From Eubacterium sp. (GTDB lineage: Bacteria; Bacillota; Clostridia; Oscillospirales; Acutalibacteraceae): 9,849 nucleotides of DNA. Of this stretch, positions 1 to 9,849 are shown in pieces. Positions within the stretch are counted from its first letter, which is position 1. Every line of letters begins with the position of its first letter. A program made the position numbers and the translations under genes. The DNA lies in NCBI GenBank assembly GCA_017543725.1, contig JAFYFO010000182.1:1-9849 (forward strand). The letters are read 5' to 3'. The notes under the pieces are model-generated. The model did no database searches, had not been told where the DNA came from, and saw only the letters and a program-made list of their open reading frames with translations.

Positions 1-1
1 G

Positions 2-937
2 AAAAAGGAAAAAGAAAAAGAAAAGGTTTCCACGGGAACAATAGTTTCCAGAGTTATTGCAGGCATAATCGCCGTTGCATATTTCGTTCTTCTCATTTTC
101 GGCAGATTCTTTATGGAAAAAGAAGGCTGGTTTCTTCAGAGCCTCGACCCGTTTTCAGGGGCTAAGAATCCAAACCAGTTAATCCGCGTTATCAGTCTTT
201 GCATTTTGACTTTAACGGTTAGTTACATTCTTCGTTTCATAATCGGCAAAATGGTCAACAACAAGAAGATAACAAAGAAAATTGGCGTTGCAGTTATTGA
301 ACTGCTCGGCAACACAGTTAAATATGTTGCAATTTTAGTTCTTGTTTTCCTCGTTCTGAGCGCTCTCGGAGTTAACACAACAGAACTTCTTGCAGGTCTC
401 GGAATTCTCAGTTTGATTCTCGGTCTCGGCGTTACCTCGCTGATTGAGGATATAGTTGCAGGAATTTTCATCATTGCCGAGCAAATCTTTGATGTTAACG
501 ATATTGTTGTTATCGACGGTTTCCGCGGAACGGTTGTTTCAATCGGCATCCGCTCAACAAAATTTGCCGATATCGGCGGCGATATTCTCACAATGCGCAA
601 CTCCTCCATCGGTTCGGTTGTTAACTTAACAGACCGTATGTCCTGCGCTGCTTTAACCTTCCCCATCGCTCCTCAGGAATCACTCGAGCATGTTGAAGAA
701 GTTATCAAAGAGCATTTCGACCCGTCTGCTGTTAAGAGCAGATGCGATAAAATGCAGGCAGAGCCGATTTATCTCGGACTTTGCGAAATCACAAAGAAGG
801 GCGTTCAGATGCTTCTCTTCATCGCAGGATGCAACGAGGCTGATAAATATGATGTTGAGCGTGCTCTTTACCACGAAGTTAAAACTGTTTTTGACGACAA
901 TAATGTTCAACTCGGCGCGTCCGGTCTTGAAGAGTAA
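2..937 (+). CDS. MscS-family mechanosensitive ion channel, 5'-truncated by window edge
   Basis: Small-conductance mechanosensitive channel of the cytoplasmic membrane, which releases ions and solutes on osmotic downshock. The frame is open from base 2 (311 visible residues). The first ATG, at 113, lies after a Lys/Glu-rich stretch and a clear membrane helix (visible residues about 15-37), so the true start is upstream of the window. Further helices lie at about 60-82 and 107-123, followed by a Gly-rich pore-lining segment (about 126-160; LLAGLGILSLILGLG then SLIEDIVAGIFIIAEQIF). The beta domain comes next, with GTVVSIGIRSTKF and the family-type MRNSSIGSVVNLT (about 198-210). The soluble C-terminal part is short, ending in SGLEE. 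The pore segment plus the beta-domain motif make the family call firm; ion preference cannot be read. It is probably the first visible gene of an operon, with 18 bases between its stop and the next start. No promoter is visible in the window. Confidence 0.9.
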   Translation, partial: KKEKEKEKVSTGTIVSRVIAGIIAVAYFVLLIFGRFFMEKEGWFLQSLDPFSGAKNPNQLIRVISLCILTLTVSYILRFIIGKMVNNKKITKKIGVAVIELLGNTVKYVAILVLVFLVLSALGVNTTELLAGLGILSLILGLGVTSLIEDIVAGIFIIAEQIFDVNDIVVIDGFRGTVVSIGIRSTKFADIGGDILTMRNSSIGSVVNLTDRMSCAALTFPIAPQESLEHVEEVIKEHFDPSAVKSRCDKMQAEPIYLGLCEITKKGVQMLLFIAGCNEADKYDVERALYHEVKTVFDDNNVQLGASGLEE

Positions 938-955
938 CAGATTGGAGGCAACGCC

Positions 956-1750
956 ATGAGAGCAAAAGAATACGGCGCAAGACCATCGCGCAATGTCTTT
1001 TCAGGCGGTCAACAATTTTCATACGACGAATTCAACAGAGAATATAAAAAGGTCAGATATAAAAGTGCTGAGGAATACGCATGCCGTAATGTTAAGGAAT
1101 ATCATCACTATCCCGAATATAAGGATTTAACTTCCGATGACGATTCTAAGAATCAATACGGCGCAGCAGCAGGCGGAGCGGTAATCGGCTCTGCTCTTCG
1201 CACAGCGGGAAGCGCAATGAAGCGCCGCAGGATGTTTCAGCAGGTTATCTGCATTATCGCAGGCTCAACCATCATTGTTTCAACCTATCAGGCAATGATG
1301 AAACAGCAGGCGCAGGCAAGTCCCCTTCCAACACCCTCCTCGGTTGTTCAGGAAACGGATAAGCCCGTTCCGACCATACCCGACGAGGAAACCGAATTAC
1401 CGCAGGTTGCTTCCGTTGAATGGGAATGGAACGAAGATTTCACCGAGGTGCATCTGATTCTTTACAACAGCGAAAGATTCGTTATTTTTGAAACCCCCGC
1501 TGAAATCAGCGTCAGTGTTCAGGAGCCGACCTGTAATAAAGAAGGCGTTAAAACCTACACTGCAGGCGCTGAATACGAAGGCGAGTCCTATACGGATTCA
1601 AAAACCGAAGCAATTCAGCCTCTGGGTCACTCTTTTGACAAAGGAAAAGACATTGTTCTCGACAGCGGCCAAAGCGCAAAAGAATTTGAATGTGCTCGCT
1701 GTCACGAGCACTTCAGAGTTGCAACAAGTTCGTCGGAAATAGACGATTAA
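956..1750 (+). CDS. Single-pass membrane protein with Cys-containing extracytoplasmic domain, function unknown
   Basis: 264 residues, not recognised as a named family. The start is supported by a GGAGG box at 944-948, seven bases before the ATG. The N-terminal 65 residues are hydrophilic and rich in Tyr, Lys and Glu. A Gly/Ala-rich stretch (68-86) is followed by a basic cluster (KRRR, 89-92) and one membrane helix (about 97-114), predicting an inner N-terminus and an outer C-terminus. A Pro/Thr/Glu linker (about 121-150) leads to a C-terminal domain containing EPTCNKEGVKTYT (190-202), LGHSF (223-227) and CARCH (246-250). The first two elements resemble the short Cys-containing repeats (TC..EG..TYTC..CG....PALGHS) common in secreted clostridial proteins, here degenerate, with the middle Cys pair replaced. 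Its position between an MscS channel and a glycosyltransferase suggests an envelope role, which is inference. Confidence 0.8.
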   Translation: MRAKEYGARPSRNVFSGGQQFSYDEFNREYKKVRYKSAEEYACRNVKEYHHYPEYKDLTSDDDSKNQYGAAAGGAVIGSALRTAGSAMKRRRMFQQVICIIAGSTIIVSTYQAMMKQQAQASPLPTPSSVVQETDKPVPTIPDEETELPQVASVEWEWNEDFTEVHLILYNSERFVIFETPAEISVSVQEPTCNKEGVKTYTAGAEYEGESYTDSKTEAIQPLGHSFDKGKDIVLDSGQSAKEFECARCHEHFRVATSSSEIDD

Positions 1751-1778
1751 AAAAACAAAATGTTTCGAGGAAAAGGCT

Positions 1779-2783
1779 ATGAAAAACACTGCGGCATTTA
1801 TTATGCCGGTTAAACTCAGCGGTTCCGATATGGAACTGCGCCATTTCAAAGAGGCAGTTGAATCAATCAAAAATCAAACAGACAAAAACTGGATTCTGAT
1901 TATGGTTGACGATGTTTCCGAAGATAAAAAGGTTTATGATACCATAGATGAAATTAAAACCGATTTGAAAGATAAAATCAGAGTTATCTATTCGGATAAA
2001 AACTGCGGAGCGGGAATGGCAAGAAACAAAGGAATAAAACTTGCAAACGAACTCGGCGCGCCCTTTATTCTCTTCAACGATTCGGATGATATTTCAAACC
2101 CGAGAAGGCTTGAACTCGTCAGAAAGGCGTTTGAAGATGAAAGCGCAAATGTTGTTTACACAAGTTTTGATGTTATCGACGAAAACGGAAAAACCGTTCC
2201 CGAAGAAAAAATCAATATGGCTGTCAGGGAAATAATCGACGGTCACAAAATTGATATTGTTGAGGGTGAAAACGCTTTCGTCAATATCGCTTCAAAGAAG
2301 AAGTACACAAACTTAACCTCCTGCACGGCAGTCAGAACTTCGCTTGCTGTTGCGGAGCCCTTCCCCTGCGAATCCGTTTCCGAGGATTGCAACACCTGGT
2401 TCAGATACGGAGCGTACAAAGGAAAATTCGTTTTCATCAGGGAAATAAAAGGGGGCTACAGAATCTGCACCGGCGTTGCGAGCCGTTCAAGGAGCAAGAA
2501 TGTTAACTTCTATGAAAAACTCTTTGAAGTTGATTCCTCGGGATTTGAAGCGGCACTTAAACTTGCAAAAAAGAACGGCACAATGGGCGCCTGGGAAGAA
2601 AATGATTTAAGATGCGCATTTTATGTTCGTCTTGCTCTGAGCCTTCTCCACGGTAATTCAGAGGATTATTGCAAAAAATCGCTCGAAATTTCAAAGAGCA
2701 TTTCAATGCAGAGCACTATTAAGTATATTGATATGCTTTACTGTGAAGATGAAGAAAAAGCCCGTATGAAAGAAATGTTATAA
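1779..2783 (+). CDS. Family 2 (GT-A) glycosyltransferase
   Basis: 334-residue inverting glycosyltransferase that should transfer a sugar from a nucleotide-sugar donor to an unknown acceptor. The GT-A fold is visible in order: an N-terminal strand and helix (AAFIMPV...HFKEAVESIKNQ), the nucleotide-binding acidic pair (VDD, 43-45), the family segment CGAGMARNKGI (76-86), the metal-binding DxD-type motif FNDSDD (99-104), and the acceptor-side SEDCNTWFRY (201-210), where the acidic pair would supply the catalytic base. The C-terminal 90 residues are helical and not recognised. There is no signal peptide or membrane helix, so it acts in the cytoplasm. Start: GAGG at 1767-1770, eight bases before the ATG and 28 bases after the previous stop. 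It is the last gene of the block and is followed by a strong terminator. A surface polysaccharide or glycolipid product is likely from the context, but unproven. Confidence 0.88.
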   Translation: MKNTAAFIMPVKLSGSDMELRHFKEAVESIKNQTDKNWILIMVDDVSEDKKVYDTIDEIKTDLKDKIRVIYSDKNCGAGMARNKGIKLANELGAPFILFNDSDDISNPRRLELVRKAFEDESANVVYTSFDVIDENGKTVPEEKINMAVREIIDGHKIDIVEGENAFVNIASKKKYTNLTSCTAVRTSLAVAEPFPCESVSEDCNTWFRYGAYKGKFVFIREIKGGYRICTGVASRSRSKNVNFYEKLFEVDSSGFEAALKLAKKNGTMGAWEENDLRCAFYVRLALSLLHGNSEDYCKKSLEISKSISMQSTIKYIDMLYCEDEEKARMKEML

Positions 2784-2788
2784 AGCAT

Positions 2789-2819
2789 AAAAAACAACCG
2801 CTTGATGCGGTTGTTTTTT
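2789..2819. terminator. Bidirectional rho-independent terminator between converging genes
   Basis: A 13-base stem, AAAAAACAACCGC (2789-2801), pairs perfectly with GCGGTTGTTTTTT (2807-2819) around a five-base loop. GCAT (2785-2788) and ATGC (2821-2824) can extend it past a one-base bulge. The arms give a U-run in either direction, so it can end both the glycosyltransferase transcript (stop at 2783, + strand) and the GH3 transcript (stop at 2829, - strand). Confidence 0.93.
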
Positions 2820-2828
2820 TATGCCTTT

Positions 2829-5288
2829 TTAAAGTTTTATATCCATTGCCATTTTAAGAACATTCATCGCCGTTCTCTGCATCTCGCCGAGAGTTATTCC
2901 GTCGGGCTTGCCAAAGGAGGCAAGAAGCGTTCCGTCGGGCTTGAACTTCATTTCAGGTGTTCTCAGCTTCGGGTCCATATACGGTGCGCCCGGCATAAAG
3001 AGGTCAACCTGAGCGCGAACACGATACGCCTGGTCGCGGATAATCGGGAATTCCGGTGACTTTGATTTTTGCATCCACCAGTCGGTCATAACATTGCCCT
3101 TATATCCCCATTCGTTTCTGAGAATAGTTGTACATAAATCATAATTATAATGTCCCCATACTCCGTTTATCTTATTATATGAGGTCATAATATTCTTCGG
3201 ATGCGCTTCCTTGACACAGATTTCAAAGCCTTTGAGATATATCTCTCTGAGCGCCCTTTCGGAAAGACGCGAATCATTCTTCGTTCTTTTGAACTCCTGA
3301 TTGTTGCAGGCAAAATGCTTCGGGCAGGCAGAAAGTCCTCCACTCTGAATTCCCTTAACGTATGCCGCAGCCATCTTACCGCTGATATACGGGTCCTCGC
3401 TGAAATATTCAAAATTTCTTCCGCAAAGCGGATTTCTGTGAATATTGAGCCCCGGGGCTAAAAGAATATCCGCTCCCCTGCTCTTCATCTCCTTTGCAAG
3501 CTCGGTGCATAGCTCTTCAATAAGCCCGGTATTATAACTGCTTGCAAGAAGCAGACCAATCGGAATAAGCGAGCAGTTTGCCTTAAGGCTGAGACCCGAA
3601 GGACCGTCCGAAGTTACAATCGGAGGAACGCCCTTATCCCTGAGAGACTGCAAAACGCCTGCACAAACGCCTGTGTTGCCTGCTGCACCGAGAGGACTGT
3701 CCACAGTGTAATCGCCCCTTGAAATTGCTTCAAGCTCATCAAGGCTGAGCTGAGCCGTAAATTCTTCAAGCGTTATCTTTCCCTCTTTAACATCGGCAAG
3801 TTTGTATCCGACATCGCCGACCTGGGGAATATCCTTTGGCATATTATTAAGAATTCTTGTTGCCATATCAAATTTCTGTTTGGCAACGGGTTTCTTTTTC
3901 AAAACGGTTTTTCCGTCAACTGTTTCAGCGTGGTAAACATCAAAATGTTCCTGGGGCGCAGAAGCCTGCTTATGCTGTGAATAAACAAAATTTTCTTCCT
4001 GATAGTAGTTGAAAATCTCTTCTGTGTCCCTGACGTTTTTGCCGAGGTGGAATTTATAATCGCCCTTTTCAACAACATAACAGCCTGCGTGGTTTGTTGA
4101 GCCGCAGTCATCATACGAACAAAGTTGATAAAAATCAACAAAGAGTTCAATCTCTTCGCTTTCTTTCGGCGCAAGAACTTTTGTCTTGCCAAAAGCCGCA
4201 AGTTCTCTTGCAGGATTTCCAAGCCTGCCGACGGGCTTTTGAAGGTATAACTGAACAACCTCTTTACCGCTGAGTTTGCCGACATTAGTCACCTTGATTT
4301 TAAACGAAAAGCCGTTTTCAACAGCCTGAGCGGCGCTGCACTCAAATTCAAAATCAGTGTAACTCAGCCCGAAACCGAAGGGATAAATAACGCTGTTTTT
4401 ATCAAAGGTTTCAAAATATCTGTAACCAACAAAGATATCCTCTTCATAATTATTAAAGATTTTGTTTCCGAAATTGGCTGAGGAGGGATAATCATAATAA
4501 CTCTTTGCAATTGTGTCGCTGAGTTTTCCGCAGGGATTAACCTTTCCCGTGAGCAAATCGCAAACAGCGTTTCCGCTTTCCATACCTCCCTGCCATACGC
4601 AGAGAATTGCGCTGATTTTATCGCCGAAGTTTTCAGCCCACGACATATCCATAATCATACCGACATTTAAAAGCACGATAACCTTATCAAAAACGCTTGT
4701 TATCGTTTTGAGGTTTTCAAGCTCCCAATCGTAGAGATAATAGCTTCCCTTTTCAAGAGTGCAGTCCTTATCCTCGCCTGCGCCCCTTCCTATTATATAT
4801 ATAGCGGCGTCGCTTTGCATTTTTGCTTTTTCAACGATTTCGCTTTTTAAAACGATATCATTGTGAGAAACGCGCCAGTTGCCCCACACGAATTCGGTTG
4901 GTATCGGATTCTTTTCGATGAAGGTTTCATACCGGGAAACGAGCTCCTCGTTTATTTCAAGCTCATCGCAATTTCTGAGCGCTTCAAGAAGACTTACATT
5001 GTTCCGGCATTTAACTGCTCCGCCCGAGCCGTAGCCAACGTAGAACCAATCCTTCTGAAGTCTTGAAAAAACGGAAAGACGGCTTCCCTTTGCAAGCGGA
5101 AGCGTTCCGTCATTTTTAAGAAGCACTGCTCCCTCGGCAGCCGCCTGCCTTGAAAGGGCGGTTATTTTTTCGTCTATTATTTCAGACTTTGTTTCCTGCT
5201 CCTCTTTTGTGAAGCTGTGGGTTGCCATATTATTAATTGTTCCTGCAACCTTATTAATGTCATCCTTGATTTTATCTAAAACACTCAT
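2829..5288 (-). CDS. Family 3 glycoside hydrolase (beta-glucosidase type), domain order permuted
   Basis: 819-residue cytoplasmic exo-acting beta-glycosidase that releases sugars from the non-reducing end by a retaining mechanism. The usual GH3 order (TIM barrel, alpha/beta sandwich, FnIII-like) is rearranged: the sandwich domain comes first (about 45-315; AAEGAVLLKNDGTLPL at 50-65, GMESGNAVCDLLTGKVNP at 235-252, FGFGLSYT at 304-311), then the FnIII-like domain (about 328-421; KVTNVGKLSGKEVVQLYL), a linker, and the barrel last (about 510-770). Barrel motifs include SDGPSGL (560-566), APGLNIHRNP (611-620), KHF (657-659) and DSRLSERALREIYL (672-685). The predicted nucleophile is D736 (VMTDWW); the predicted acid/base is E172 (GRGAGED, matching GRxSGEGxDR of relatives). 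Both are present, so activity is expected. There is no signal peptide. GCAGGA lies six bases before the ATG. The same order is known from Butyrivibrio fibrisolvens BglA and a Ruminococcus albus beta-glucosidase. Exact sugar specificity is unknown. Confidence 0.93.
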   Translation of the reverse strand: MSVLDKIKDDINKVAGTINNMATHSFTKEEQETKSEIIDEKITALSRQAAAEGAVLLKNDGTLPLAKGSRLSVFSRLQKDWFYVGYGSGGAVKCRNNVSLLEALRNCDELEINEELVSRYETFIEKNPIPTEFVWGNWRVSHNDIVLKSEIVEKAKMQSDAAIYIIGRGAGEDKDCTLEKGSYYLYDWELENLKTITSVFDKVIVLLNVGMIMDMSWAENFGDKISAILCVWQGGMESGNAVCDLLTGKVNPCGKLSDTIAKSYYDYPSSANFGNKIFNNYEEDIFVGYRYFETFDKNSVIYPFGFGLSYTDFEFECSAAQAVENGFSFKIKVTNVGKLSGKEVVQLYLQKPVGRLGNPARELAAFGKTKVLAPKESEEIELFVDFYQLCSYDDCGSTNHAGCYVVEKGDYKFHLGKNVRDTEEIFNYYQEENFVYSQHKQASAPQEHFDVYHAETVDGKTVLKKKPVAKQKFDMATRILNNMPKDIPQVGDVGYKLADVKEGKITLEEFTAQLSLDELEAISRGDYTVDSPLGAAGNTGVCAGVLQSLRDKGVPPIVTSDGPSGLSLKANCSLIPIGLLLASSYNTGLIEELCTELAKEMKSRGADILLAPGLNIHRNPLCGRNFEYFSEDPYISGKMAAAYVKGIQSGGLSACPKHFACNNQEFKRTKNDSRLSERALREIYLKGFEICVKEAHPKNIMTSYNKINGVWGHYNYDLCTTILRNEWGYKGNVMTDWWMQKSKSPEFPIIRDQAYRVRAQVDLFMPGAPYMDPKLRTPEMKFKPDGTLLASFGKPDGITLGEMQRTAMNVLKMAMDIKL

Positions 5289-5336
5289 AAAAGTTCCTGC
5301 CTTTCAAAAAGAATTCTATGGCAATTTTGTTTAACT

Positions 5337-5365
5337 ATTATATCACTGAAAAACATTTAGTGCAA
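5337..5365 (-). promoter_or_regulatory. Sigma-A-type promoter of the GH3 gene
   Basis: On the - strand, TTGCAC (5365-5360) and a perfect TATAAT (5342-5337) are separated by exactly 17 bases. Transcription would start near 5330, leaving a leader of about 42 bases before the ATG. Confidence 0.8.
5344..5362. promoter_or_regulatory. Imperfect dyad inside the GH3 promoter, candidate operator
   Basis: CACTGAAAAACATTTAGTG has outer arms CACT/AGTG and inner AA/TT matches. It fills the spacer between the -35 and -10 boxes of the hydrolase promoter, a position where a bound protein would block RNA polymerase. It does not match the CcpA cre consensus well. The match could be chance in AT-rich DNA. Confidence 0.3.
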
Positions 5366-5387
5366 CATATTAAAACAAAATCCCATT

Positions 5388-5416
5388 TAGACATTTTTCG
5401 CACGGATTATTATATA
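5388..5416 (+). promoter_or_regulatory. Candidate promoter of the spoIIE transcript
   Basis: TAGACA (5388-5393) and TATATA (5411-5416) are separated by 17 bases, with a predicted start near 5423 and a leader of about 40 bases. The AT-rich surroundings offer other -10 registers. In Bacillus subtilis, spoIIE is driven by sigma-A with Spo0A; I see no clear Spo0A box (TTCGACA or its complement) here. Confidence 0.5.
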
Positions 5417-5461
5417 TCATATAAAAAGTTGAAAAGATTATCAAAGTGAACGGATGATAAA

Positions 5462-7573
5462 ATGGAAGTTAAAGAAAGAAAAATGCAAAAAAATAAGGCT
5501 TTTCAAAGCAAAACGGCGAAAACTTTTTTCGAGGGGGCAATTTATTTTGCGCTCGCATTTTGTTTCAGCGCGGGAAAAACCGTTACGGGCGTTCAACCCT
5601 TCGGCGTTTCGCTCATTGCCGTTTCGAAAAACAAAAATATTATTTTTTCTTTTCTCGGCAGTGTTCTCGGATACCTCATCGGCGGAATTGATATCGGTTT
5701 TGCGCGTTATCTCGCCTCGGCGGTCCTTGCTTTAATAGGTGCAATTGCGGCAAATGCCTTTGATTTAAACTCCCGCCCCTTCTTTCCGGCGGCTGCCTCG
5801 TTTTTCTCGGTTTTCGTTTGCAGTTTCACCGTTAACATAAAACTTCAATGCGCTTTCAATCAATACATAGTTTCTTTTGCGGAGGCGCTTTTATGCTTTG
5901 CAGGGGCGTTTTTCTTCTATAAAAGCATTAATTCAAACTATAAAAGAGTTCGCCTGCCCGCTCTGCCCGTTTACGACCAGACCTGCATAATAATATCTCT
6001 TTCACTGCTTCTTCTGAGCCTTTCATATTTCAGAATTGAAAACATCAGCCCTGCGAAAATAATCGCGATTGCGGCAGTTCTTTTAACTTTAAGGCTTTAT
6101 AATCTTAAACTCGGAATGATTGCGGCGATTGCGGCTGGCTTTTCGGTTTCTCTTTCTAAGGGCGGCGAACTCTTTATGCTCGGCGCGCTTGCGCTTGCAT
6201 ATCTTTTAGCCGCATTATTCTTTGAATTTTCGGCGTTTTCATCGGGCGTTGTTTTCATTTGCGCCGTTTCGTTTTTCTGCATTGCTTCCGAAAGCACAAA
6301 CGCATTTCCGTTTTTTGAAGAAGCGCTGGCAGGCGATTTGATTTTTCTTCTTTTTCCGTCGAAACTCAACAGAAAAATTGAGGATTTAAGACAAAACGGC
6401 GAAAGCGACGATTCCTCCCTTCGCCAGAGCCTTGTTTTAAAACTGCGTTTTGCTTCAAGCGCAATGGCGGCAATCAGCGAAAGCGTTGACGCTGTCAGAG
6501 AGAAAATCGACGAAATAACACGAAACGAAAACGAGGCAAAGCGGAGCAGTATAAGCGAAGAAGAATATCTCAGGCGCGAGATAATTCTTGAAAAAACAAA
6601 TCAGATAAGGAGCGTTGCCTCCGACCAGTTTTATTCCATATCGGGAATGCTTGAAGATCTGGCTTTTGAATTTGACGAGGCTGAAACCTTTGACTCGGAA
6701 ATTTCAAAGAAGATAAGAAACCTTCTTTTTGAACACGGAATTTTTCCCGAAAGCATTTCAGCCGTCCGGGATAAATATTCAAGAATGAGGGTTGAAATTC
6801 TTTTAGACAATTCCGAAAACACCGCAGATTTTCCCGATTTGGAGGAGGAAATAGGCAAAATCTGTTCAAGATATTTTGAAAAAGGAATATTAACCAATCT
6901 CAAAAACGAAAAAATGATTTCTTTTTTTGAAAAGCCGAATTATAAAATCAGTTTCGGCTTTGCTCAGCACACCGCCGAGGGAAAACTCTGCGGCGACACG
7001 GTTAAAATCATAAACAACTGCAAGGGCAGATGTATTCTTATTATCAGCGACGGAATGGGCAAGGGCTCGCGCGCGGCGCTCGACGGAGCAATGGGAGCGG
7101 GGCTTATTTCAAAACTCATAAACGCGGGTTTCGGCTTCGATACTGCGCTGAAAGTTGTTAACAGTGCACTTTTTGTTAAAAGCAACGATGAAAGCCTTGC
7201 AACGCTCGACATTGCAAGCATTGATATGTTCACGGGAAAATGCGAATTCTATAAGGCGGGAGCGCCTTTGAGTTATGTTTTGAAAAGCGGAAAAGTTCTT
7301 AAATGCGAACTTTCCTCAATGCCTGCGGGAATACTTCGAGGAGTTGAATTTGCAAAGAAAAACGCCGTTTTGAAGCCCGGTGAATCCGTTGTTTTGCTCA
7401 GCGACGGACTTTGCGAACTCGGAGAAGAATGGCTTGAAAAAGCGCTTCTTGAAAGCGAAAGCCTGCCGCCGCAGGAAAGAGCGGATTTGATAATAAAAGA
7501 GGCAGAAGAAATAATGCAGGGAAAAAAGACTGATGATATGAGCATTATCATTGCAAAATCGGAAAGGAATTGA
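5462..7573 (+). CDS. spoIIE: Stage II sporulation protein E, membrane PP2C-type phosphatase
   Basis: 703 residues. In Bacillus, SpoIIE dephosphorylates SpoIIAA at the asymmetric septum, which frees sigma-F in the forespore, and it also interacts with FtsZ. The N-terminal 300 residues hold about ten hydrophobic helices, then a helical regulatory region (about 305-490), then a PP2C-type domain (about 495-700). Metal-binding motifs are intact: CGDT (510-513, D512), ISDGMGKGSRA (528-538, D530), SLATLDIASID (578-588), LSDG (646-649, D648) and TDDMSII (690-696). It is shorter than Bacillus SpoIIE (about 827 residues); the loss lies between the membrane part and the phosphatase, where relatives carry a Cys-rich segment absent here. 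The ATG at 5462 is the first in frame after an upstream stop and has only a weak CGGA box seven bases before it; M8 is an alternative start. Neighbouring genes usual in Bacillus (tilS, hprT, ftsH) are not downstream. Confidence 0.93.
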   Translation: MEVKERKMQKNKAFQSKTAKTFFEGAIYFALAFCFSAGKTVTGVQPFGVSLIAVSKNKNIIFSFLGSVLGYLIGGIDIGFARYLASAVLALIGAIAANAFDLNSRPFFPAAASFFSVFVCSFTVNIKLQCAFNQYIVSFAEALLCFAGAFFFYKSINSNYKRVRLPALPVYDQTCIIISLSLLLLSLSYFRIENISPAKIIAIAAVLLTLRLYNLKLGMIAAIAAGFSVSLSKGGELFMLGALALAYLLAALFFEFSAFSSGVVFICAVSFFCIASESTNAFPFFEEALAGDLIFLLFPSKLNRKIEDLRQNGESDDSSLRQSLVLKLRFASSAMAAISESVDAVREKIDEITRNENEAKRSSISEEEYLRREIILEKTNQIRSVASDQFYSISGMLEDLAFEFDEAETFDSEISKKIRNLLFEHGIFPESISAVRDKYSRMRVEILLDNSENTADFPDLEEEIGKICSRYFEKGILTNLKNEKMISFFEKPNYKISFGFAQHTAEGKLCGDTVKIINNCKGRCILIISDGMGKGSRAALDGAMGAGLISKLINAGFGFDTALKVVNSALFVKSNDESLATLDIASIDMFTGKCEFYKAGAPLSYVLKSGKVLKCELSSMPAGILRGVEFAKKNAVLKPGESVVLLSDGLCELGEEWLEKALLESESLPPQERADLIIKEAEEIMQGKKTDDMSIIIAKSERN
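7563..7568 (+). promoter_or_regulatory. Ribosome binding site inside the end of spoIIE
   Basis: AAAGGA lies nine bases before the ATG at 7578 and fixes that start over the in-frame ATG at 7551, which lies inside spoIIE, lacks such a box and would add nine residues before the MGNIFGFIG terminus that aligns with GlmS. The site overlaps the last spoIIE codons, which favours translational coupling. Confidence 0.75.
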
Positions 7574-7577
7574 GAAA

Positions 7578-9332
7578 ATGGGAAACATATTTGGATTTAT
7601 CGGAAAAGGAAACGCAAAAGATATCATTATTTCGGGATTAAACCAGTTGAGCGGAAAATGCGAATCCTCGGGAATTGTTTTAAAGGAAGAAGAAAAGTTC
7701 ACCGCCGTTAAAACTAAGGGAGGAGCGAGCGAACTTGCTTCAAAAATATCGAAATCGGATATTCCTGCGACGGCAGGTCTGGCGCAGTGCTGCGAGGATT
7801 TGCGATATAAAGCCTCAAGCGTTTTTGCGCCGCCATCTTTCAGCGACCTTTTTGCCGTTTGCTCAGACGGTGAAATTGAAAATTTTGATGCCCTTGTTTC
7901 ACAAATTCAAGCCCCCTTCCCCGTTGCCTCAAATGAAGATTTGATTCTGGCGCTTCTTAGCGTCAACGGCAATAAAAAAGGTTCTGAATTATTGCAGAAA
8001 GTTTCAGAACTTATAAGGGGCGATATCAATATTGCATTCATATCCCTGAAAGAAGAAGCAATCTACTGCAGGGGCGGACTGAAAAAACTGATAATCGGAT
8101 TTTCAAAATACGGATGCTTTGTTTCAAGCGAACTTTCAGCGCTGACGGGCTTTTGCGAAAAATATGCGCTTCTCGGCGAAAACGAATACGCGCGCCTTTC
8201 AAAAGATAAAATTTCTTTCTTTGATTCAAGGCAGAAAAAAATAAAAAAGACCTTTATGAGCGTTCCTGCCCAAAGATTGATTTTAAGCGAAATACCACCT
8301 GAAAAAGAACTTTATAATCTTCCGATTGCAGTTAAAAGAACTCTTGCGAATTTTGTTGAAAACGGCGAAATGAAATTTGATTATCTTAAATTCAGCAACA
8401 GATATTCGGAAAGAATAAACAAAATCATTGTTATCGGAAGCAACGGCTCAATAAGCACAGCGCGCTGTGCAGTCAGCCTTTTTGAAACCTATTTTGCCCT
8501 GACAAGCGTTTGCAAAGCGCCCGGCGAATTTCTTTCATCATATTCTCCGCTTGATAAAGGAACTCTGGTAGTCGCGATTTCAAAAAACGGCGAAGAAAGA
8601 AAAATACTGCAATGCTGCCGAAAAGCAAAACAGCACCGCGCGAAAATTCTTGCGCTGACCAATAATCCGTTTTCGGCGCTGTCAAGGGAGAGTGATTTTC
8701 CCGTTTTTGTTCCTGCAGAGCGCAAATCGCTTGAACTTAGCGTTTTTGAATGTGTTTCAAACTATCTTGCCCTGATCCTCTTTTCAATTTATATCGGCAG
8801 AAAAATTCAAACCGTTTCACCCCTCTATCTCGGAGTCAGTTTGAAAATGGCTGAAATGCTTCCCGGAATTCTCTCCTCGATTGCGGGAAATAATTCAAAC
8901 GGAGAAAGCGCCGCTTTGCTCATTCGTGAGAGCGAAAATATTTTCGTTTGCGGCGGCGATTCTTTTTCGGATGAAACGGCAAAATTCCTGCGCGAAAAGG
9001 CAAATAAAAACGCCTCTGCCGTTTCTCTCGATGAATTAACTGAATATCCGCAAAACCTGCTTGAAAACTCTGCGCTATTAGCGCTGTTTTATGACGGCGA
9101 AAATGCGCGCCATTTCAAATCGGATTTGAAAAAAATAAAAAACAGCGGCGCCAAAATCATTATAATAACAAGCGAGAGCGCAAAAGAACACTTTGCAGAA
9201 TATGAAAATCTTATAACTTTTGCCGACACTCTTCCTGTTTTCAATCCCATCCCCTGCATTGCCTGCGCTTATAAAATCGCACTTCTGGCAAGCACGCGTG
9301 AAAATGAAACAAGAAAAGAACAATCAGCATAG
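7578..9332 (+). CDS. GlmS-like protein (glutaminase-like plus two SIS domains), probable pseudoenzyme
   Basis: 584 residues that follow glucosamine-6-phosphate synthase from end to end. The N-terminal part (1-230) tracks the class II glutaminase: MGNIFGFIGKGNAKDII against MCGIVGYIGK.., AVCSDGEIENFDAL (93-106) against AVVHNGIIENY.EL, and KLIIGFSKYGCFVSSELSAL (170-189) against PLVIGLG...ASD..AL. Two sugar-isomerase (SIS) domains follow (about 280-410 and 453-570). The catalytic residues are gone: the nucleophile Cys after Met is Gly, TRWATHG reads AQCCEDL, SQSGET reads SKNGEE (335-340), CGTSY reads IGSNG, the E..K..E triad and the KHGP His of the second SIS domain are not found, and the C-tail carrying the catalytic Lys (LAKSVTVE) is replaced by a charged tail. 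The frame is intact and the ribosome site is good. It is cotranscribed with spoIIE. The fold call is firm; the function is unknown, with sensing or scaffolding the likeliest guess. Confidence 0.85.
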   Translation: MGNIFGFIGKGNAKDIIISGLNQLSGKCESSGIVLKEEEKFTAVKTKGGASELASKISKSDIPATAGLAQCCEDLRYKASSVFAPPSFSDLFAVCSDGEIENFDALVSQIQAPFPVASNEDLILALLSVNGNKKGSELLQKVSELIRGDINIAFISLKEEAIYCRGGLKKLIIGFSKYGCFVSSELSALTGFCEKYALLGENEYARLSKDKISFFDSRQKKIKKTFMSVPAQRLILSEIPPEKELYNLPIAVKRTLANFVENGEMKFDYLKFSNRYSERINKIIVIGSNGSISTARCAVSLFETYFALTSVCKAPGEFLSSYSPLDKGTLVVAISKNGEERKILQCCRKAKQHRAKILALTNNPFSALSRESDFPVFVPAERKSLELSVFECVSNYLALILFSIYIGRKIQTVSPLYLGVSLKMAEMLPGILSSIAGNNSNGESAALLIRESENIFVCGGDSFSDETAKFLREKANKNASAVSLDELTEYPQNLLENSALLALFYDGENARHFKSDLKKIKNSGAKIIIITSESAKEHFAEYENLITFADTLPVFNPIPCIACAYKIALLASTRENETRKEQSA

Positions 9333-9346
9333 CCAAAGCAAGTTAA

Positions 9347-9361
9347 ATATTCGTTGAATAT
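9347..9361. repeat. Short perfect palindrome over the transporter -35 box
   Basis: ATATTC (9347-9352) and GAATAT (9356-9361) flank GTT, and the right arm covers the -35 hexamer of the next promoter. Its position suits a repressor operator. Six-base arms in AT-rich DNA can arise by chance, so support is weak. There is no U-run, so it is not a terminator. Confidence 0.3.
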
Positions 9362-9382
9362 AGAAAGGAAATGTGATAGAAT
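9354..9382 (+). promoter_or_regulatory. Sigma-A-type promoter of the transporter gene
   Basis: TTGAAT (9354-9359) and TAGAAT (9377-9382) are separated by 17 bases, with a predicted start near 9389 and a leader of about 27 bases. It follows the GlmS-like stop by only 21 bases, and no hairpin with a U-run lies between, so readthrough from the spoIIE transcript is also possible. Confidence 0.7.
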
Positions 9383-9403
9383 AGTATTAAGATTTTGTTT
9401 AAA

Positions 9404-9409
9404 GGGGAG
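9404..9409 (+). promoter_or_regulatory. Strong ribosome binding site of the transporter gene
   Basis: GGGGAG within AAAGGGGAG, six bases before the ATG at 9416. It fixes the start of a gene that runs off the window. Confidence 0.8.
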
Positions 9410-9415
9410 AAATTT

Positions 9416-9849
9416 ATGGCAGATAACGGTATTAAGCAAAAAGCAAAAACGCTTTCCGATAATGTTCGGTATTATTGGAAAGAGCCTCCGATTGGCAAAT
9501 ATATGCCTTTCAAAGAAGTTATTTCCTATGCTTTCGGCGGAATTGGCGCATATTTCATCATTCAACTCGGCTCAACGCTTATTGTCAGCACAACCAATAT
9601 CATTGTCAGCAATGCAATCGGAGTCGGACCGAAACACTCCTATATCATCTATCTCATTGCAACCCTGCTAAACATTCCGCTGACGGCAATCAGGGCAAAT
9701 ATGGTTGACAACACCCGAGGAAAAGGCGGAAAATACCGACCCTATCTGATTTCAATGGGAATTCCGACAACGCTTATTGCGCTGATATATGTCTGGTTCC
9801 CGTATGAAACGATGTACAACCTGTTTCCCGGCAAAATCTTTAATTATGA
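9416..9849 (+). CDS. GPH/MFS_2-type sugar:cation symporter, 3'-truncated by window end
   Basis: The first 144 residues of a membrane transporter; the frame is still open at the last base. Members of this family (MelB and relatives, usually about 450-500 residues) bring glycosides, pentosides or hexuronides into the cell with Na+ or H+. After a hydrophilic N-terminus of about 30 residues (IGKYMPFKEVISYAFGG), hydrophobic helices lie at about 36-65, 75-94 and 109-128. Between the second and third lies MVDNTRGKGGKYRPYLI (96-112), which matches the D-x-T-R-x-x-x-G-x-x-R-P-Y/W loop motif of this family. It has its own promoter and a strong ribosome site. The substrate cannot be told from this part. 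Together with the intracellular GH3 enzyme it suggests import of a beta-glycoside before cleavage, though the two genes are 4 kb apart and not in one operon. Confidence 0.85.
   Translation, partial: MADNGIKQKAKTLSDNVRYYWKEPPIGKYMPFKEVISYAFGGIGAYFIIQLGSTLIVSTTNIIVSNAIGVGPKHSYIIYLIATLLNIPLTAIRANMVDNTRGKGGKYRPYLISMGIPTTLIALIYVWFPYETMYNLFPGKIFNY

Follow-up and report, generated by a model that had tools for sequence, protein, structure and literature searches.

What would keep a gene for glucosamine-6-phosphate (GlcN-6-P) synthase, GlmS, in its place and open from end to end after the residues needed for its chemistry had been replaced? The question is raised by contig JAFYFO010000182.1 of Eubacterium sp. 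(assembly GCA_017543725.1), positions 1 to 9,849 of the forward strand; this whole stretch of 9,849 nucleotides is called the window below. GlmS catalyzes the committed step in making cell-wall aminosugars. SpoIIE, whose gene precedes the glmS-like gene here, is a phosphatase that sets off the first sigma factor of the forespore. We report that the window encodes a spoIIE-linked GlmS that has lost key residues of both active sites, is under purifying selection and is predicted to keep its fold. The reading that we favor, tentatively, is that of a likely non-catalytic, probably dimeric partner of SpoIIE early in sporulation. The features concerned are as follows.

5462..7573, plus strand: spoIIE-like gene, 703 amino acids, PP2C domain, with DGMG, SDG and DDM motifs in common with B. 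subtilis SpoIIE (5ucg)
7561..7567, plus strand: ribosome-binding-site-like GGAAAGG within the 3' end of spoIIE, 10 nucleotides upstream of the ATG
7578..9332, plus strand: GlmS pseudoenzyme, 584 amino acids (P0001), assigned from profile match, residue map and a 31-member dead family
7578..8252, plus strand: GATase (Ntn glutaminase)-like domain (residues 1-225), with Gly2 in place of the nucleophile Cys
8223..8249, plus strand: basic hinge, residues 216-224, DSRQKKIKK, from the family alignment
8418..8771, plus strand: first SIS domain (Pfam SIS, residues 281-398); the former SQSGET loop is SKNGEE, residues 335-340
8820..8885, plus strand: helical linker, residues 415-436, with family-specific residues, from the family alignment
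8934..9308, plus strand: second SIS domain; E466 and E473 kept, K485 replaced by F470 and H504 by E489, C-tail Lys absent

The frame at 7578..9332 begins with ATG, and GGAAAGG upstream of it fits the good ribosome site described in the original prediction for this DNA. The GlmS-like architecture proposed there for the full length was borne out by end-to-end alignments: the NCBIfam glmS model TIGR01135 covers residues 4-570 (E 1.7e-43) at 149 bits, below its curated cut-off of 418, and E. coli GlmS chains align to residues 3-579 (E about 1e-23). The SIS model PF01380 passes its gathering score (60.4 bits, cut-off 25; strongest over residues 281-398), and GATase_7 is a weak match below threshold (16.4 against 25 bits). 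The GATase plus double-SIS fold expected of a GlmS is predicted to be present.

Cys1 is given as the catalytic residue of the glutaminase, and Glu488, His504 and Lys603 as those of the isomerase, in a review (PMC9272926). When the window protein was mapped onto E. coli GlmS, the glutaminase site was found to be altered throughout, with C1 replaced by G2, R73 by C72, W74 by E73, H77 by R76, N98 by D97 and D123 by N119, so that neither the nucleophile nor the glutamine-site residues Arg73, Trp74 and Asp123 are present. In the isomerase site Q348 is K336, S349 is N337, T352 is E340, K403 is F390, K485 is F470 and H504 is E489, and K603 has no partner in the alignment; one of the three isomerase catalytic residues is retained, Glu488 as E473. 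Positions 303, 347, 350, 351 and G99 are as in E. coli. It had been claimed that every catalytic position was changed, and for most mapped positions this is so, including the N-terminal Cys, the Asp of SDTEV, R73, W74 and H77 of TRWATHG, Q348, S349 and T352 of SQSGET, the His of KHGP and the C-tail Lys. It does not hold for Glu481 (E466) and Glu488 (E473): the E-x3-K-x2-E triad has lost its Lys but keeps both Glu. From these residues we predict that GlcN-6-P synthase activity has been lost.

The arrangement is not peculiar to one contig. A spoIIE match at 1e-20 was found in 77 of 80 genomes of the genus, including the source genome, and the DNA 3' of it was readable in 75 (spoIIE is cut at contig ends in G003 and G071, and G019, G072 and G090 gave no match). 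The slot after spoIIE holds a dead full-length protein, that is, one with key catalytic residues replaced, in 20 genomes, an intact GlmS in 14, and in 27 a protein of 323-369 amino acids consisting of the SIS part only (in G091 and G092 it is truncated at a contig end and appears shorter or incomplete). Four further genomes (G020, G066, G087 and G097) have a dead gene that is split, contig-cut or partly without GATase, the one in G020 lying in two pieces. The window's spoIIE-like gene carries the PF07228 phosphatase domain (103.2 bits), and its stop codon lies 4 nucleotides upstream of the pseudoenzyme start. With start codons picked by rule and P values that ignore shared ancestry, the gap from spoIIE stop to gene start has a median of 5 nucleotides for dead genes (-4 to 19, one 290) and 2 for SIS-only genes (-4 to 51), against 29 for intact genes (17 to 157; Mann-Whitney P 1.6e-5 and 8.9e-6, respectively). 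Beyond the single window, the context is one of adjacency to spoIIE, an intact orthologue in sister species and glutaminase loss in two groups. Outside the genus, where no systematic search was made, the pairing was not seen in G044, whose spoIIE (~2.94 Mb) and glmS (~0.46 Mb) are far apart on one 3.0-Mb contig.

To describe the dead family we aligned 31 proteins, namely the 20 full-length genus proteins, among them that of the window, and P0003-P0013, but not P0002, which is 95% identical to the window protein. Cys1, Arg73, Trp74, His77, Lys403 and His504 are retained in none of the 31, N98 in 2, E488 in 6, K485 in 12, D123 in 17, E481 in 25, S347 in 27 and G350 in 29. Lys603 is retained in 0/31, and in 4/21 in a smaller earlier alignment, counts on which we put no weight because they depend on a short C-terminal tail of uncertain alignment. 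The intact spoIIE-linked GlmS proteins of sister species keep all these catalytic residues (14/14), as does a second type of GlmS found in the genus (17/17). Since intact genus GlmS proteins themselves deviate from E. coli at positions 302 and 401 (linked) and 303 (both types), these positions were not scored as losses. Other positions are held firmly in the dead family. The hinge residues D216 (31/31), K223 and K224 (30/31 each) are kept, where intact-linked GlmS has K224 in 14/14 and K223 in 5/14, and Y417 and G430 (31/31) and L124, G167 and T361 (30/31) are near-invariant in dead proteins and missing from the intact-linked ones.

Selection was judged from the ratio of nonsynonymous to synonymous substitution rates (dN/dS, by NG86). 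Of 190 pairs of dead full-length proteins the 15 closest were considered, and 12 of these gave finite values, of 0.11-0.21, which are rough because dS is 1.3-2.6, near or at saturation. Both domains are constrained, with 0.09-0.24 for the GATase part and 0.09-0.19 for the SIS part in six pairs. Four SIS-only pairs, at dS 0.31-0.80, gave 0.09-0.135, and the 12 closest of 78 intact-linked pairs gave 0.03-0.10. Constraint at the protein level has therefore been kept in proteins whose residues point to a loss of catalysis, as expected of a pseudoenzyme under selection, and the earlier view that this is not a decaying pseudogene is supported. The 31 dead homologues together with the low dN/dS also rule out explanations confined to the single window, whether pseudogene or sequencing error.

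A separate canonical glmS, which the original prediction had suggested looking for, was found in the same genome on contig C283, truncated by the contig end and preceded by a glmS ribozyme (RF00234, 78.9 bits). Counting contig-edge pieces, a canonical GlmS is encoded elsewhere in 18/20 dead genomes (exceptions G006 and G014, 73% and 88% complete) and in 25/27 SIS-only genomes (exceptions G079 and G080, 92% and 97% complete, in about 420 and 410 contigs). In the 14 intact-linked genomes there is a single GlmS match above cut-off apiece, which is the linked copy. Of 20 scanned loci of the second type, 9 gave a ribozyme score above threshold and 11 did not reach it; before linked genes no ribozyme was found, either in the window or at the two intact-linked loci scanned (of 14), L057 and L065. 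The gene tex lies near the second glmS in 11/24 such loci, some of them short. Second and linked intact GlmS are about 40% identical (two pairs), and the window protein shares only 18% identity with the second-type GlmS of G007. As separate observations, G083 (98% complete, 3 contigs) has no recognizable full GlmS (best TIGR01135 E 2.3e-26, one short stretch with stops), its spoIIE is followed by nothing GlmS-like within 2.4 kb, and it could possibly rely on amino-sugar salvage. In G074 (C214 and C147) in-frame stops occur within the spoIIE and GlmS matches, reflecting either poor assembly or real loss.

In a tree of the SIS domains (78 rows, a quick method with SH-aLRT support only, whose long branches may mislead), nine intact-linked GlmS proteins adjoin the dead and SIS-only proteins (98, then 99), and the second GlmS type is distant from this linked lineage (100). 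A SpoIIE tree (40 rows) has one group of SIS-only genomes with G018 and G028, one of intact genomes with G032, and one of dead genomes with a second SIS-only set (G005, G013 and G017); because SIS-only genomes fall in two separate groups, that tree implies at least two losses of the GATase domain. With G044 as sole outgroup both dead groups lie on one side (100/99), and two alternatives to this grouping are not rejected (p-AU 0.258 and 0.244), so that a single origin of catalytic loss is favored but not proven. G032, which is placed among intact genomes by its SpoIIE yet has a second-type GlmS in the slot, looks like a case of replacement at the same position. As inferred from the trees, an ancestor would have carried an active glmS directly behind spoIIE, and the cell's supply would have been taken over by a second GlmS, from a different lineage and under ribozyme control in many species. 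The linked copy would thereby have been free to lose catalysis while being retained for a role that needs the double-SIS body, and the glutaminase domain would have been dropped in two separate species groups while the SIS part and the position at spoIIE persisted. A bolder version, which we regard as possible although rather doubtful, is that GlmS first moonlighted in linking cell-wall precursor supply to the sporulation phosphatase and that, once the second GlmS had taken on catalysis, its predecessor was left with a signaling or scaffold role alone, all stages (intact, dead and glutaminase-less) persisting in sister species.

What the retained role might be is suggested by the neighbor. We propose that the dimer of SIS domains, equipped with the basic hinge and the linker helix peculiar to this family, would attach to SpoIIE or the surrounding septal complex, that translational coupling would give it near-equal stoichiometry to SpoIIE, and that the bound protein would tune SpoIIE assembly or the dephosphorylation of SpoIIAA-P by SpoIIE. 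In B. subtilis, SpoIIE activation involves dimerization mediated by its regulatory domain (PMC5468089) and SpoIIE is proposed to sit within a division and cell-wall complex (PMC7349982); together these make a GlmS-derived protein beside SpoIIE plausible but unproven. Among the genes that another report (PMC3789822) tabulates as under the control of sporulation sigma factors is glmS of C. difficile, a weak hint that hexosamine supply may be tied to sporulation.

Several points weigh against this proposal, besides the near-saturated dS and the qualified gap statistics given above. Binding to SpoIIE is an indirect prediction, and the neighbor scores 266.6 bits against the curated SpoIIE model TIGR02865, below its cut-off of 490.8. 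No GlmS-family gene was found within the 2.4-8 kb read after spoIIE in 7/75 genomes, so the partner is dispensable or replaceable. In 3/75 (G032, G061, in two pieces, and G086) a canonical GlmS nearest the second type directly follows spoIIE, as if substituting for the linked gene; the gaps at these loci (L120, L158 and L181) are 76, 116 and 49 nucleotides. Spo0A-box cores were not enriched upstream of spoIIE (5/33 genomes against 3.7 in shuffles), which leaves transcription at the time of sporulation unsupported. None of 8 genus genomes had a sigF match at the curated cut-off of 321, six of them scoring 287-305 bits, and the best in the source genome (74.6% complete) was 225 bits.

The original prediction had considered a sensor plausible, in which the SIS pocket would bind a sugar phosphate or UDP-GlcNAc from the hexosamine pathway and relay the signal, as RpiR/MurR regulators or the glucokinase regulatory protein do. 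The phosphate loop has drifted, however: in the dead family Q348 is retained in 2/31 and T352 in 5/31, with an acidic D/E instead in 14/31, and among SIS-only proteins Gly occupies the 350 position in 6/27 and Asp the 303 position in 16/27 (Ala there in intact relatives). There is no common ligand chemistry here, and binding of a fructose-6-phosphate-like ligand in the usual mode is not what selection maintains across the family. The sensor is thereby weakened family-wide to an unlikely explanation, although it may apply in single groups.

Slightly less probable still is a regulatory heterodimer, in which the dead subunit would pair with active GlmS and lower or redirect hexosamine synthesis when spoIIE is switched on. 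The fold is predicted to be kept, a canonical GlmS is nearly always present, and His504 of E. coli GlmS is an inter-subunit residue. E. coli GlmS is depicted as a dimer in the review (PMC9272926). The active partner would, however, have to come from the other, distantly related GlmS lineage, and SIS-only forms persist in G079 and G080, fragmented assemblies in which no canonical GlmS was found.

Improbable, in our estimate, is conversion to a different enzyme, a remodeled SIS pair catalyzing another sugar-phosphate reaction (deaminase, deglycase or isomerase). It draws on NagB-II and FrlB, GlmS relatives with the same fold and other chemistry, and on E466, E473 and the frequent Glu at position 481, but the Glu at 488 and Lys at 485 are mostly gone, His504 is gone throughout, and the 481 position is Tyr in 22/27 SIS-only proteins. 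Strongly disfavored is a slow relic, redundant since the second GlmS was acquired and preserved by operon position alone on its way to loss, for although stages of loss do coexist (intact 14, dead 20, broken or cut 4, SIS-only 27, none 7), dN/dS is about 0.1-0.2 in both domains, frames are open across 26-52% identity and family-specific residues are invariant.

Three other frames of the window were noted. On the minus strand, 2829-5288 encodes a glycoside hydrolase family 3 (GH3) protein whose domains are inverted relative to the common arrangement: its GH3 C-terminal domain, at residues 54-309, precedes its GH3 N-terminal domain, at residues 551-744. A 264-amino-acid open reading frame at 956-1750 (plus strand) has no Pfam match at E 1 and carries a CxxC close to its C-terminus. 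Another (9395-9849, plus strand) starts 3' of the pseudoenzyme and runs off the window end; in the related locus L037 the pseudoenzyme is followed by an MFS sugar transporter gene.

We found no GlmS-derived pseudoenzyme or SIS-SpoIIE link described in the literature surveyed, mostly titles and abstracts. One locus displays an active enzyme, a dead full-length protein and a domain-stripped remnant across sister species, beside spoIIE, which makes the stepwise conversion of an enzyme into a non-catalytic protein testable, and likewise crosstalk of hexosamine metabolism, or its former enzyme, with SpoIIE. The B. subtilis SpoIIE partners GpsB and RodZ (PMC7349982) resemble the window protein in proposed role only, a link between SpoIIE and the cell-wall machinery; no sequence relation is claimed, and the interaction proposed here is inferred. 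Compared with GlmS/GFAT (TIGR01135), the window protein is without key catalytic residues of both sites and scores 149 against 418 bits. Like the RpiR/MurR regulators, it has SIS without obvious catalysis, and their profiles match in its first SIS domain, all below cut-off. Unlike them it has a GATase-fold N-terminus, two SIS domains and an unconserved phosphate loop, and no helix-turn-helix family, the N-terminal mark of RpiR/MurR, is among its Pfam and profile matches (absence from fold-match lists was not counted as exclusion). The glucokinase regulatory protein is an SIS-fold inhibitor, from which the window protein differs in being bacterial, linked to spoIIE and derived directly from GlmS.
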